In this document: positions 3,924 through 46,099 of the stretch, piece after piece
How the letters are laid out: the number at the start of each line of letters is the position of its first letter
Numbering within the stretch: the stretch's first letter is position 1
Assembly (NCBI GenBank): GCA_027065715.1
Contig: JAMONO010000040.1
Coordinates: forward strand, 1 to 46,302
Length of the DNA: 46,302 nucleotides
Source: Flavobacteriales bacterium
GTDB taxonomy: Bacteria > Bacteroidota > Bacteroidia > Flavobacteriales > Flavobacteriaceae
Direction: 5' to 3'
The notes under the pieces: model-generated
What the model saw: only the letters and a program-made list of their open reading frames with translations
What the model was told of the DNA's origin: nothing
Database searches by the model: none
Program-made: the position numbers and the translations under genes

Positions 3924-4975
3924 TTTTTATTTATAATTATGTTTGTTTCGGCTAAGAAAATGTAATAATATCTTTCTAATTGTAATAAATATTTATTGTC
4001 GACCTGAACAACCTCTTGTAGGGTGCTATAATTATAATTATTTTTTTCAACGGCATTATTTCTTGTTTTTCTATATTTTTCATTTATTTTATCTTGATTC
4101 CATTTTTTTCTGAGTTTTTCTGTCATTTTTATACATTTCCAAGCTTCATCGGAATAATATTTTTGGGCCTTGGTGAAAGAATCCTTTTTATATACATATT
4201 CACCTTTGTAAGCTAACACAAGAGTAGGTACTAGCAATAATTGAGAGATGAAATATTTAGCTAAGAATACTTCATAATCTAGTTGTAGAGGAAATGTCTT
4301 ATAATAATTTATGAAATTTCTTAACCAATAACATGAGCTGTATTTTTCAATAAAATATGATTTTATAACAAGTTTTAAATCGGTTTCTGAAAAATACCGT
4401 GCTTTTTCTAAGGTTTGGATAGGTAAATCCATCAGCCAATAATCTGATAAAGAATTTTTGTTTATAAAAAAAACTCCATGGTGTTGAATCGGATCAATCT
4501 CTAACAGAAATCGTTCTATTTCTTTTTTTATTTCTTTTACTTCTTTTTTGAGGTGTCCAATAATAACCAAATCAAGATCTGAATAGCTGATATTGGTTTC
4601 ATCCGCGTAACTTCCTTGAACAATTAAATGAGAGTCATGTTTTAACAGTGCTTTATTATATGCAATAAGTTTATGGTAGAATGGATATTGCAATCTGTTT
4701 TTTTTTATACTTGGGATACAAATTGTTTTTCCATCACTTTTTAATGTTTTGTATTTATGTATTGAATTTTCTAATAACTTAATTGATTTATTAGGATGTC
4801 TTGTAAAAAAAAATAATGGATTTTGTGTTAATAAAGTCCCTTTAATTTTATTTTTTAAATTTTCTTTAAAAGTAATAGGTTTATCATTAAAATAGGCTGT
4901 TTCCAGTTTCTTTTTTAATTTTAAAAGTTTAAAAAGATTGTAAGCTTTATGTTTTTTCAACTTCATATGTACCAA
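3920..4975 (-). CDS. NTase-fold protein 2 in glycan operon, function unknown
   Basis: The 351-residue protein has a second NTase-fold signature at residues 121-135: Gly121-Ser122, Asp133-x-Asp135 (QGSYADETNISYSDLDLVII). Unlike its neighbour, about 120 residues of basic sequence precede the motif. The position where a third acidic residue is expected (HHGVFFI, around 165-171) lacks Asp or Glu, so its catalysis may differ from NTase protein 1 or the residue may lie elsewhere. The C-terminal part is rich in Tyr and Lys and looks helical. Translation could start at residue 1 or at Met4. The gene ends inside the start of NTase protein 1 (4-base overlap). The pair looks like diverged paralogues or interacting subunits. 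I do not recognise a characterised homologue. Confidence 0.65.
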   Translation of the reverse strand: MVHMKLKKHKAYNLFKLLKLKKKLETAYFNDKPITFKENLKNKIKGTLLTQNPLFFFTRHPNKSIKLLENSIHKYKTLKSDGKTICIPSIKKNRLQYPFYHKLIAYNKALLKHDSHLIVQGSYADETNISYSDLDLVIIGHLKKEVKEIKKEIERFLLEIDPIQHHGVFFINKNSLSDYWLMDLPIQTLEKARYFSETDLKLVIKSYFIEKYSSCYWLRNFINYYKTFPLQLDYEVFLAKYFISQLLLVPTLVLAYKGEYVYKKDSFTKAQKYYSDEAWKCIKMTEKLRKKWNQDKINEKYRKTRNNAVEKNNYNYSTLQEVVQVDNKYLLQLERYYYIFLAETNIIINKK

Positions 4976-4982
4976 ATTTAAA

Positions 4983-6623
4983 TCAATATTTTTTTAAAAG
5001 TATGTTTTCTTTTTTGATAATTTTTTCTATTAAACTATTAAAATTTCGGTCACTAAAATATTGATCTACATTATTATATTTAAAACCGGAAATACTGGTG
5101 GATATTTTCTCAAAGAAATAATTAAATGGAATTTGGTATCTGATAAATAACAAATAAGCATATCTTAAAGCTAATTCATATTGTTTTTCATAATCAATTT
5201 CATTAGGATCGAAATTATCTAGCACATTAAAATATTCTTCTTTGGAATCAATATCAATAGTAAATCCTTTTCCTCTGTAATGGGTCTGAGAAACAACCGC
5301 ACATGCTTTTTTTACCAATGGTAACTCCATACCTGCCGTAGTAGTATGTACCAATCCCAAATCGGTAATGTCATATATACTCCAACTATTTACTTTTTCT
5401 TCAGGTTTAATAATTTTTATGTTATTACTAGGTTTTACTTTACTTGTAATTATGTCATAAAAAGGCATGTTGGTACCTATAACTATTTCTGCGGGGTGTA
5501 TTTTAACAATCAATTGTTTATCAGGATGACTATTAAACCATTTAATGGTCTCGATCACCCATTCAATAGGATTTTTAAAAGCAATTTCACGTTGAGCGCT
5601 GGCAGCATCCCATAATACATTGGTAAATAAGGTATAGATAGGCTTATTATTATCTAATCCTAATTTTTTTATAGTTTCTTCTTTGGTTGTTGCTTTACCA
5701 AAATTATATACAAATACATCATTTTTATGTGAAATACGTGATGCTAGGTAGTTTTTAATTTCTTTAGCTTGTTTTTTAGTCAGTCCAATGTTTTTAACTT
5801 TCTCCCATTCTTCCGATACATCCCAAGAATCCCCGGTTTTATTCCAATTAAAAACTTGTGAGTATTTTTTCTTTCCACGACTATGTACCAAAACAGGTAT
5901 TTTATTTTTTGTTAAAACATAAAAAGCAGGTCCCCAAGTACTATAAATTCCATGGCTCATTATCACTTTGTCCGGTCGCAATTTAACCAATTGATTACCT
6001 ATTTCATCAGAAATACTAATAGCATTTTTGATTAGTTGCTTTTTATTGTTCAGCATTGGTAAATTCGAAGTAACCATTCCAACTTTATAGTGTTTTAACA
6101 ATGTAGCTTCTAAAATACTGTTATATTTATTTTTATAATGGAGTCCCTTATTATTTTTGATAAAGTCTGAAATGGAAATCCATTCTAATCCCATATTGGT
6201 TAGTATTTTTGAACCTAAAATAAAATCGCGTTGTGCCGTATAATCCCAATTTTTTTCTTCGCCAATTCTTTTTAGTTCATGAATAGGTAAAGTGTTGTCA
6301 TCTATTACAAATGTTATATTATGTCCTCTTTTTTTCAAGCCTAAAGCTAATAAAGCTTCTATTGCTAAATGATAAATGCTTCCGGGTAGTATTAATAAGA
6401 CATATATATATTGGGGTTTTTCAGTTGAAACGGTTTTAAAATTTTTTAAATCATTAGCTTGTGCAATAAGATTACTTTTTGCAAAAAAACTTATTTCACC
6501 TAATCTTTTATAACTTATTCCCATTTTATGTAAAAATGATACTAAATGTGGAAAAAAGTATATTTTTATTTTATCTTTGGTTTTTAATCTCATATATATA
6601 AAATTTTTTACCAAGCTGTCCAA
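4983..6623 (-). CDS. Capsule-type GT-B glycosyltransferase (Capsule_synth-like)
   Basis: This 546-residue soluble protein resembles capsule polysaccharide transferases of the KpsS/Capsule_synth and glycerophosphotransferase-like GT-B group. Visible landmarks are an N-terminal Rossmann-like half (residues 71-110), a KIHPAE motif at 374-379, and a C-terminal donor-site-like block with His426-Thr-Thr-Thr-Ala-Gly and Glu433, followed by a Tyr-Arg-Gly-Lys-Gly stretch at 449-453. In this family these motifs commonly bind a CMP-sugar or related donor, which fits a locus that makes a CMP-activated acid sugar. The start at 6623 overlaps the SDR gene by 16 bases. Met11 at 6593 is an alternative that would leave a 14-base gap and may be the true start. 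It could be the transferase for the nonulosonic-type sugar; that is inference from motif and context. Confidence 0.6.
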   Translation of the reverse strand: MDSLVKNFIYMRLKTKDKIKIYFFPHLVSFLHKMGISYKRLGEISFFAKSNLIAQANDLKNFKTVSTEKPQYIYVLLILPGSIYHLAIEALLALGLKKRGHNITFVIDDNTLPIHELKRIGEEKNWDYTAQRDFILGSKILTNMGLEWISISDFIKNNKGLHYKNKYNSILEATLLKHYKVGMVTSNLPMLNNKKQLIKNAISISDEIGNQLVKLRPDKVIMSHGIYSTWGPAFYVLTKNKIPVLVHSRGKKKYSQVFNWNKTGDSWDVSEEWEKVKNIGLTKKQAKEIKNYLASRISHKNDVFVYNFGKATTKEETIKKLGLDNNKPIYTLFTNVLWDAASAQREIAFKNPIEWVIETIKWFNSHPDKQLIVKIHPAEIVIGTNMPFYDIITSKVKPSNNIKIIKPEEKVNSWSIYDITDLGLVHTTTAGMELPLVKKACAVVSQTHYRGKGFTIDIDSKEEYFNVLDNFDPNEIDYEKQYELALRYAYLLFIRYQIPFNYFFEKISTSISGFKYNNVDQYFSDRNFNSLIEKIIKKENILLKKY

Positions 6624-44790: not shown

Positions 44791-44867
<77 letters not shown>

Positions 44868-44882
44868 CGTGTTTTGCGAGTG

Positions 44883-44890
44883 CAAATATA
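44883..44890 (-). promoter_or_regulatory. Candidate -7 box for tRNA-His
   Basis: The minus strand reads TATATTTG, matching TAnnTTTG, 16 bases before the tRNA 5' end. No TTG appears at the -33 position; the area is a poly-T/A run. Confidence 0.5.
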
Positions 44891-44935
44891 AGTTTTTTTT
44901 GAAAAATAAAAACTATTTTTTTTTATTTTTTTCAC

Positions 44936-45131
44936 CAGCCCCGGCGGTAAGTTGCGTGAGGGATAGAAGCGGTTACCGGCGAAGGCGACAGGCTCTTGCC
45001 AAAAAAACTTGGAGGCAGCGACCAAAGGAAGCTCGCAAACAAGTTATTTTTGGCGCCTGTTGCCGAGCCGGTATGAGCGGATAGCCCGACCCGAGGATAT
45101 ATGCGTAGGGATTTAGGGAGGGACACGCCCA
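44936..45131. other. GC-rich structured intergenic element (candidate repeat or ncRNA)
   Basis: This block is about 63% GC at 44941-45000, in otherwise very AT-rich DNA. It folds into one long nested hairpin: GCGTG 44954-44958 with CACGC 45124-45128; TACCGGC 44974-44980 with GCCGGTA 45067-45073; GGCGACAGGC 44984-44993 with GCCTGTTGCC 45055-45064 (one G-T); and 44998-45011 with 45040-45054 (14 bp, one bulged T). The flanks GTTGCGTGAGGGATAGAAGC and GAGCGGATAGCCCGACCC resemble an intergenic element that I recall from many Bacteroidota genomes. Frames that cross it on both strands are artefacts. Strand and function are unknown. Confidence 0.6.
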
Positions 45132-45223
45132 AAATTTGATAAGAATTTACCGGTAGGTTTCATTTAATACAAAAAAATAAACGGTTTTACAATGATTAAC
45201 AAGTTTACTTATAAAAAAAGCCG

Positions 45224-45231
45224 TATTTTTG
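45224..45231 (+). promoter_or_regulatory. Candidate -7 box directly before nadC
   Basis: TATTTTTG matches TAnnTTTG but ends only 4 bases before the ATG. If it is used, the mRNA would be leaderless or nearly so. Confidence 0.35.
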
Positions 45232-45235
45232 AAGC

Positions 45236-46099
45236 ATGATTACAAAAATACAGTTTGAAAAGGAACTCAATATTATAATAGATAATGCCATTCGTGAAGA
45301 TATTGGTGAAGGCGATCACAGTTCATTGGCTTGTATTCCGCCGGAAGCAACCGGCAAAGCCCAATTGTTGGTTAAAGATGACGGTATATTGGCAGGGGTG
45401 GAATTTGCCCGAATGGTTTTTGAAAAAATTGATTCCGAGTTACAAATGGAAGTCTTGATTAAAGACGGTAGTTTTGTTAGATACGGTGATGTGGCTTTTG
45501 TTATACGAGGACGTTCACAATCTATCTTAAAAGCTGAACGATTGGTATTGAATGCCATGCAACGTATGAGTGCTATTGCCACGAAAACCCGTCGGTTTGT
45601 CGAAATATTGCAAGATACAAAAACTCAAATATTGGATACCCGAAAAACAACACCGGGTATCAGGGCTTTGGAAAAATGGGCTGTTAGGATAGGTGGCGGA
45701 ACCAATCACCGGTTTGCTTTGTATGATATGATTATGTTGAAGGATAATCATATTGATTTTGCCGGTGGTATTGAACAGGCTATTTTAAAAACTAATAAAT
45801 ACTTGAAAAACAATAATTTAAATTTAAAAATTGAGATTGAAACCCGCAATTTGAGTGAAGTTAAAGAAGTGTTGCGTGTTGGTAATGTAAATAGGATTAT
45901 GTTGGATAATTTTAATTATGAGGATTTGCGAAAAGCTGTAAAATTGATTGATAAACGCTTTGAAACGGAGGCTTCGGGAGGTATTACGGAAGAAACTTTG
46001 CTTAAATATGCCGAGTGCGGCGTCGATTTTATTTCGTCGGGGGCGCTGACACATTCGGTTTCAAATATGGATTTGAGCTTAAAAGCCGTAAAGGAATAA
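45236..46099 (+). CDS. nadC: Nicotinate-nucleotide diphosphorylase (quinolinate phosphoribosyltransferase)
   Basis: The 287-residue enzyme joins quinolinate and PRPP to give nicotinate mononucleotide in de novo NAD synthesis. The family blocks are complete: EDIGEGDHSS (21-30), ERLVLNAMQRMSAIAT (101-116), DTRKTTPGIR (134-143) and GGGTNHRFALYDMIMLKDNH (153-172), followed by the C-terminal ASGGITEE and FISSGALTHS. The length is typical. No nadA or nadB lies in the window. It is cytoplasmic. Confidence 0.96.
   Translation: MITKIQFEKELNIIIDNAIREDIGEGDHSSLACIPPEATGKAQLLVKDDGILAGVEFARMVFEKIDSELQMEVLIKDGSFVRYGDVAFVIRGRSQSILKAERLVLNAMQRMSAIATKTRRFVEILQDTKTQILDTRKTTPGIRALEKWAVRIGGGTNHRFALYDMIMLKDNHIDFAGGIEQAILKTNKYLKNNNLNLKIEIETRNLSEVKEVLRVGNVNRIMLDNFNYEDLRKAVKLIDKRFETEASGGITEETLLKYAECGVDFISSGALTHSVSNMDLSLKAVKE

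Follow-up and report, generated by a model that had tools for sequence, protein, structure and literature searches.

Is the long GC-rich hairpin between the tRNA-His gene and nadC of a Flavobacteriales bacterium a chance structure, a functional RNA or a mobile repeat? The window, that is, the whole stretch of DNA analysed (contig JAMONO010000040.1, 46,302 nt), carries it in an AT-rich gap with the tRNA-His gene on the left (44791-44867, - strand; ARAGORN and Rfam) and nadC on the right (45236-46099, + strand; Pfam QRPTase domains), both outside the element. The minimum free energy (MFE) of 44936-45131 was -82.3 kcal/mol (z = -4.76), a value equalled by none of 200 shuffled sequences, and the structure consisted of nested stems of 7, 10, 14 and 5 bp. 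After trimming to 44951-45131, the energy was -77.4 kcal/mol (z = -4.98), again equalled by 0 of 200 shuffles, and the fold closed the flanks through GCGTG/CACGC (44954-44958 with 45124-45128) and GGG/CCC under the rod, with a small CCC..GGG hairpin (P3) in addition. The hairpin of four nested stems that the sequence-only reading had described in this gap is thus real. The opposite strand gave a weaker fold (-64.8) with a similar z (-4.68). Each of the two flank motifs occurred once in the window at up to three mismatches, where 0.00 (5') and 0.08 (3') occurrences were expected by chance. The element proper spans 44954-45131; positions 44936-44953 carry just GGCGG, which by eye recurs upstream of some copies from the same genus.

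Read on the + strand, the element begins with the 5' strand of helix P1, GCGTG (44954-44958), which pairs with 45124-45128 in the MFE structure. The 5' core GGGATAGAAGCGG (44960-44972) provides the GGG helix, an A.G mismatch, a covarying base and the GNA of a 3x3 purine loop, and the 5' arm of the rod (44973-45016), variable in sequence and nearly fixed in length, leads to the apex AGCGACC AAA GGAAGCTC (45017-45034), made up of an AGC/GCT stem, a GA/AA internal loop, CC/GG and a triloop. The 3' arm (45035-45075) pairs with the 5' arm, and the 3' core AGCGGATAGCCCGA (45076-45089) supplies the GGA side of the 3x3 loop, the covarying base and the CCC that pairs with GGG. P3 is placed by the MFE structure as a variable side hairpin (ACCC ... 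GGGA, 45089-45123); short CCC..GGG versions of it were seen by eye in other copies. The 3' strand of P1 with the terminal CACGCCCA (45124-45131) is placed by the MFE and by a complementarity count, in which 88 of 111 copies with the GGG base had an exact complement of the P1 5-mer within about 60 nt 3' of the core, compared with a shuffled mean of 17 (maximum 27). The 5-mer itself varied (GCGGC, GCGTT, GCGTG, GCAAC and others), and by eye many copies end in CGCCC followed by an A/T-rich flank.

The flanks had been likened to those of an element found in many Bacteroidota genomes. We ran a search pattern, the 5' core and apex in the form found in the window's genus, on 84,980 species genomes and obtained 74 loci, all from Bacteroidota by record title except one Balneolia MAG; the 3' core, which the pattern did not include, was then sought 35-110 nt beyond the apex. 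The distance from core to apex (GGGAT to GCTC) was 72-75 nt at all 74 loci (75 nt in the window) where 53-83 nt was allowed, and the unit measured 140-145 nt in 75 of 77 listed copies, a list that lacks L152, which is truncated by the end of its contig, and L014, whose core the regular expression does not match. The two exceptions, L136 (482-642, - strand) and L158 (7256-7409, - strand), have short palindromes inserted into the rod on its 3' side, which by eye look like nested insertions. Merging copies more than 90% alike left 55, and 53 of these make up alignment A1, which omits L136 and L158. Its invariant columns number 29; the pattern dictates 24 of them, and the other 5, which lie in the 3' core, were free to vary; 10 of the 13 columns of the 5' core are invariant, though imposed by the search pattern.

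A covariance model built on A1, R1, was then used without the pattern; it favours apex-bearing copies. Long R1 matches outside the pattern had the apex GCGACCnnnGGnAGC in 56 of 66, and a looser form of the apex was present in 71 of 78 long matches in another set. R1 found 6 copies in the window's own genome, 66 copies over 11 of the 13 genomes of its genus (0 in the other two; range, 0 to 14 per genome), and, in a sample of 296 genomes from the phylum, matches in 43. Among those listed, the phylum matches were mostly of two lengths, about 137-145 and 64-103 nt, and the highest numbers of copies per genome, both lengths pooled, were 89, 59, 44, 42 and 41; the MAG behind L137 had 48 matches, 47 of them full length. 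When R1 was applied to 41 sources not picked for the element (173,653 bases), five matches were obtained at E <=0.1, namely the window copy twice (in the window and in L093), two copies upstream of nadC and one match at 24.5 bits. The suggestion of a widespread Bacteroidota element was therefore borne out, and the covariance-model search proposed with it showed a multicopy element, not a single copy. The family is large, dispersed and under-recognised, with up to dozens of copies per genome in many Bacteroidota.

At gathering thresholds, Rfam reported nothing but the tRNA in the window and no family over the element at 15 long-arm loci. In a permissive search of the window (361 nt searched), the best match was Flavo-1 (RF01705) at 19.5 bits (E 0.11), below the gathering cut-off of 42 bits; model positions 1-76 aligned full length to 44949-45095, with the rod as an insertion. 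Flavo-1 had matches in 26 of 60 related genomes, over the cut-off in 22, and in 0 of 14 control genomes. The Flavo-1 loci that were read showed two bases of one design, TAGCCCCGATNGAAGCGG..AGCGGATAGCGGG and GCGTTAGGGATNGAAGCGG..AGCGGATAGCCCGACCC..GGGAACGCC, and the window copy has the second of these with a long arm. Twelve of 20 long-copy loci aligned to Flavo-1 at E <=1 with matching coordinates, one over the cut-off (L274) and 19 of the 20 below it; the five window-genome loci among the 20 gave no Flavo-1 match in the same search. Two intermediates were found: L274 combines a long arm with 50.7 bits to Flavo-1, and L041, from the window's genus, has a short arm, the window's GGG/CCC base and 62.8 bits. 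Furthermore, R1 recovers both the long and the short length class; in the 13 genus genomes, its 66 copies stand against 2 matches to Flavo-1, which was searched with stricter filters.

Flavo-1 and the window type have the basal core and the order of helices and loops in common (GAUNGAAGCGG with AGCGGANAGC), as well as many copies per genome in relatives. The window type differs in its long rod with a conserved apex, in its unit of about 142 nt versus 76 model positions, and in its GGG/CCC base closed by P1 and P3, where the Flavo-1 consensus has CCG/CGG. On the full-length core alignment and the intermediates, homology to Flavo-1 is well supported, with the window copy scoring below the level for Rfam membership, and we are highly confident that the window element is a dispersed, structurally selected long-arm relative of Flavo-1. 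In the available text of its 2010 description, Flavo-1 is listed as a probable RNA, not cis-regulatory, with no known function (PMC2864571), and the available text of a further report also lists it without function (PMC9029176); its Rfam type label is 'Gene; sRNA'. In F. psychrophilum, as far as the text at hand goes, Flavo-1 matches lie sense or antisense to transcribed regions alike and many lie in none, giving no functional clue; several 5' transcribed regions coincide with Flavo-1 (PMC9723704). The sequence-only reading was correct that no function is assigned; what it missed is the kinship to an element already on record. Searches of open-access PMC papers, a set that holds few subscription papers, turned up no description of the long form, its apex or the plasmid and phage copies.

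The claim that the arm sequence varies while pairing is kept was examined in A1. Under the named structure, 89.7% of cells were paired, compared with 71.7% after shuffling and at most 49.7% when the structure was slid; cells changed on both sides numbered 235 versus 78.9 in shuffles, and the covariation score was 0.435 versus 0.122 ± 0.010. Two further measures, pairs with a double change and pairs with further pair types, showed no clear excess over shuffles. The variable bases beside the mismatch loop (GGGATN and GGANAGC) formed a Watson-Crick pair in 136 of 137 readable copies (AT 52, TA 52, GC 31, CG 1; 19 of 156 copies were left out as not fitting the regular expressions) and in 51 of 52 copies outside the pattern. 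Y20 and the base opposite were C-G in 90, T-A in 41, T-G in 5 and A-A in 1, and the basal triplet was complementary in several forms, among them GGG/CCC, CAG/CTG, CTG/CAG and AGG/CCT. The mismatches were conserved as well. Their 3' partners G136, A138 and G141, which the pattern did not impose, were invariant in 53 of 53 copies in A1; among the 66 copies outside the pattern, 63, 65 and 61 retained them, respectively. The 5' mismatch bases A13, G16 and A18 were kept in 54, 51 and 53 of 66 long copies outside the pattern when read at fixed positions, so that shifts count as changes.

Many copies occupy orthologous sites in different species, as judged by flanking proteins. We made 39 comparisons in 18 groups (two of which are one locus), each based on a fold predicted for a single member. 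Double changes that preserved pairing numbered 82, versus 17.3 ± 3.6 when the 3' changes were reshuffled, and disrupted single changes numbered 111 versus 218; these figures describe a strong trend and not a p-value, because the comparisons overlap. Together with the covariation in A1, these double changes uphold the claim of varying arms with pairing retained. One-sided changes counted from Watson-Crick-only folds gave G.T 100 times and A.C 41 times, with G.T favoured in 10 groups, A.C in 1 and a tie in 7; even at the adk/corC locus, where the + strand is antisense to both genes, G.T was found 17 times and A.C twice. A double-stranded cruciform would be symmetrical in this respect, so the excess of G.T over A.C points to one folded strand, probably the + strand of the element. 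In 122 of 139 long copies, the + strand folded more stably than the - strand; after correction by shuffling, the z values of the + and - strands lay little apart (-4.23 versus -3.86), that of the + strand being lower in 27 of 47. Double compensation in place indicates that the copies are maintained where they are, unlike inert transposon relics, and suggests that the structure still does something locally after insertion.

The genomic setting of the copies gave little order. An earlier suggestion that such elements often follow RNA genes failed, since a scan of 60 loci with a copy found a tRNA or tmRNA in only 2, of which the window is one. Twenty neighbour proteins examined, and more by eye, had no common function; they included PBP, patatin, a MoxR-like ATPase, a YfiO/BamD-like protein, MgtE, adenylate kinase, a CorC-like protein, an HhH-GPD glycosylase, cytochrome c peroxidase, trigger factor, ClpP, a MacB/FtsX permease, histidyl-tRNA synthetase, an ion channel, a sigma factor, an NDH2-like protein, a queuosine synthesis protein, a permease and nadC. 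Among 107 copies, 42 were antisense to both neighbours, 33 divergent, 22 sense to both and 10 convergent (of 156, 27 overlapping a mechanical ORF and 22 without a neighbour were omitted, and orthologous copies were counted separately). In several cases (L210, L219, L220 and their orthologues), the copy nearly fills the gap from stop to start codon, so that no more than about 10 nt separate the end of the element from the start codon. Close to one copy in a Bacteroidota MAG (L128, 1099-1143, - strand) lies a match to Acido-Lenti-1 (RF01687) at 44.3 bits.

No consistent promoter was found: TAnnTTTG, which we take to be a promoter box, occurred within 160 nt upstream 30 times in forward and 41 times in reverse orientation among 152 copies. 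Thirteen forward occurrences cluster 20-40 nt upstream, 7 of them from two orthologous loci. At the patatin and BamD-like loci, 8 of 9 copies are preceded by TAnnTTTG at a distance of 28-44 nt, the exception being L269 of the window's genome; these two loci probably carry a promoter before the element, which there would be part of a leader. In the window, TATTTTTG (45224-45231), presumably a -7 box of nadC, stops 4 nt short of the nadC start codon; the nadC mRNA would then not include the element. On the other side, TATATTTG (- strand reading) precedes tRNA-His. The positions of these promoter-like motifs place the window copy, probably, outside both neighbouring transcripts.

Dispersal was apparent from comparisons between chromosomal sites. 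In one MAG, copies 97-99% identical to each other had right flanks with an identity of 0.47-0.54, compared with 0.48 for random 75-mers, and some left flanks of near-identical copies had a REP-like palindrome in common. The L137 site holds the element in G352 and G354 and lacks it in G353 and G357; in G356, its two sides are on separate contigs. A contig end of G012 matches the tRNA-His side of the window's gap and reaches nadC without the element, and ARAGORN found no tRNA on that contig end. Upstream of nadC in G004 and G009 there is a different-looking copy with another left context; the remaining seven nadC regions had no copy by the model, and three genomes had no nadC match. Near-identical copies with unrelated flanks, element-free sites, and the microvirus and plasmid copies described below together indicate dispersal, and non-coding copies both dispersed and present or absent at corresponding sites, as expected of a MITE, were observed. 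The empty sites (the L137 and mar49 comparisons) are too diverged to define the joint, and no target-site duplication was resolved; regular expressions detected no gene-carrying version of the GGG-base type in 285 loci. In the MAG JALSLF/G352 (L286-L315), a REP-like palindrome, CTGTCAGGTGC..GCACGCTGACAG with variants, lies in fixed orientation just 5' of many copies, as if palindrome and element had spread together. Element orientation looks split into chromosome blocks in G262 and G254, and not in other genomes. Relative to replication, 30 copies ran with the fork and 19 against it in a hand count over three genomes, each a single contig with a dnaA-like motif close to base 1, the midpoint being taken as the terminus; six genomes without such a motif in the first 3 kb were omitted.

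Copies were also present on plasmids and in single-stranded DNA phages. In the phage Peromfec virus RodF7_7, the region upstream of the replication gene holds a short, complete copy that scores 37.8 bits with R1 and 28 bits with Flavo-1. The microvirus mar49 carries a copy on the other strand, scored at 21.3 bits (E 2e-4) with filters off and missed at default filters; this copy lies in an insert of about 130 nt absent from mar40 and mar45; since the insert exceeds the element in length, it does not define where the element ends. In these two microviruses (L356, 728-838, and L361, about 661-745), the copies occupy the intergenic region next to the replication gene and point opposite ways with respect to the genes. 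A long copy, at 28.2 bits to R1, is present on a Capnocytophaga plasmid. A match in a Vibrio parahaemolyticus plasmid (26.5 bits) led to a family that occupies 80 places in 48 records of plasmids, every one from Vibrio; among the matches listed, 35 of 40 had no annotated gene beneath them in a gene table that is incomplete. The Vibrio repeat (L363, L366-L372) is about 150 bp long with a Flavo-1-like base. Five more Vibrio copies on four plasmids scored 14.7-24.2 bits with R1, and one partial stretch had no score; the Vibrio copies have the base in common with the element and show, by eye, compensated changes in the arms. The link to Vibrio therefore rests on moderate scores and matching anatomy. 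Among IMG/VR contigs with the 3' core, which could be phage or host, 7 of 21 had a full R1 match, two of the 7 being identical, and another pattern gave three more loci; one IMG/VR contig (L357) carries two short inverted copies about 900 nt apart (4450-4504, - strand; 5372-5424, + strand). Several searches of phages, plasmids and viral contigs returned nothing or little: blastn of one long copy against plasmids and phages gave no match, the copies there being found later with other queries, and two long-form patterns and one Flavo-1-type pattern had zero matches in viral contigs.

Known repeats resemble the element in part. ERIC and NEMIS-type repeats are likewise intergenic and dispersed, about 100-150 nt long, formed of one long hairpin and at times contained in transcripts, according to the available text of PMC2267715, whose main text makes no mention of Bacteroides, Porphyromonas, Flavobacter or Cytophaga. 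Compared by description, the element is set apart from them by conserved purine mismatches in its core and by its strand bias. Within the Bacteroidota, MITECca01 of Cardinium is an abundant, small, non-autonomous and mostly intergenic repeat; in the text available, it is described as IS982-derived, about 240 bp long and confined to one strain, and on this description it was rejected as the identity of the element (PMC9769881). An integron attC site was rejected as well, because attC boxes run AAC..GTT from 5' to 3' and the element has the reverse order, GTT..AAC, by eye in several copies.

Signs were found of both alternatives offered earlier, a functional RNA and a mobile repeat. The reading we favour, at a probability of roughly 0.48, is a mobile element, non-coding and non-autonomous, that is recognised in the form of a folded single strand. 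This strand would be RNA, or single-stranded DNA exposed in replication; a trans-acting enzyme, from the host or from another element, would recognise the mismatch-rich base and the apex, and the element would enter gaps between genes by being copied or moved, its copies then lasting there for a long time. The weakest step would be continued compensation in place after insertion, the fact that fits mobility worst. A more specific form of this proposal, which we offer tentatively and regard as doubtful as a whole, is an unrecognised mobile class that is copied via a folded single strand and whose fold is preserved by selection once it has inserted, with Flavo-1 as the short form, a range that takes in Bacteroidota chromosomes, Vibrio plasmids and single-stranded DNA phages, and an enzyme that reads purine mismatches in a sequence-free rod.

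Compensatory evolution in place, constraint on the + strand and RNA-like purine loops would suit a regulatory RNA, acting in cis in leaders and 3' regions or in trans by binding a protein, its mobility being ancient and its copies domesticated for mRNA processing or stability in the manner of ERIC and NEMIS. The leader position at the patatin and BamD-like loci and the F. psychrophilum 5' regions that coincide with Flavo-1 speak for this, as far as the available text of PMC9723704 goes for the latter. Orientation, promoter and target are incoherent, however, which is what fits regulation worst: the 107 copies have no common orientation and their neighbours are unrelated in function, G.T prevails at adk/corC although the + strand is antisense to both genes, the Flavo-1 matches in that same text fall sense and antisense alike with many outside transcribed regions, and the window copy is probably outside both neighbouring transcripts. 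On balance, we consider this explanation rather unlikely, though it ranks second. Free-standing small RNA genes, in line with the Rfam type of Flavo-1, would likewise account for structure and covariation, but the lack of a consistent promoter, and of any terminator-like site at the window copy, makes them improbable.

The remaining explanations concern the palindrome itself. Template switching between arms during replication is an established mechanism for imperfect palindromes, and it would maintain complementarity by mutation without selection; arms that vary freely at near-constant length, some of them nearly perfect, are consistent with it. Such upkeep should, however, erase conserved mismatches, yet the 3' partners were kept in 53 of 53 and 61-65 of 66 copies, and it would not favour G.T over A.C. 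As the sole cause it has a slight chance; as a contribution to arm pairing it may play a part. REP/RAYT systems and IS200/IS605 ends may depend for their function on a folded single strand, and a REP-type palindrome moved by a RAYT or IS200-like Y1 transposase would also be dispersed, intergenic and folded; the REP-like palindrome beside many G352 copies and the presence of both element and Y1_Tnp in G002, G004, G005 and G007 agree with this. No link of the element to a Y1 transposase was found, however: among the 30 Y1_Tnp loci checked, a part of all matches, a copy was found in 0 by regular expression and in 1 by covariance model (24.5 bits), the window's own genome, G008 and G012 have 6, 10 and 14 copies and no Y1_Tnp match, and G010 has a strong Y1_Tnp and no copy. 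This explanation is largely refuted and very improbable. A chance GC-rich hairpin or an intrinsic terminator (GC stem with a T run) would explain a strong local hairpin and nothing further; the former is ruled out by the covarying multicopy family and the latter by 0 terminator-like sites in 44800-45300, and both can be regarded as refuted.

For the family, these results mean that it is larger than the Rfam model and that the apex of its long form provides a second conserved site. Flavo-1 becomes a testable problem through these features, the compensation seen at fixed sites and the reach into plasmids, microviruses and Vibrio. If the element is mobile, one of the commonest bacterial phyla would harbour a new mobilisation system that reads single strands; should it instead be regulatory, these genomes would carry a genome-wide layer of RNA that is largely unannotated.
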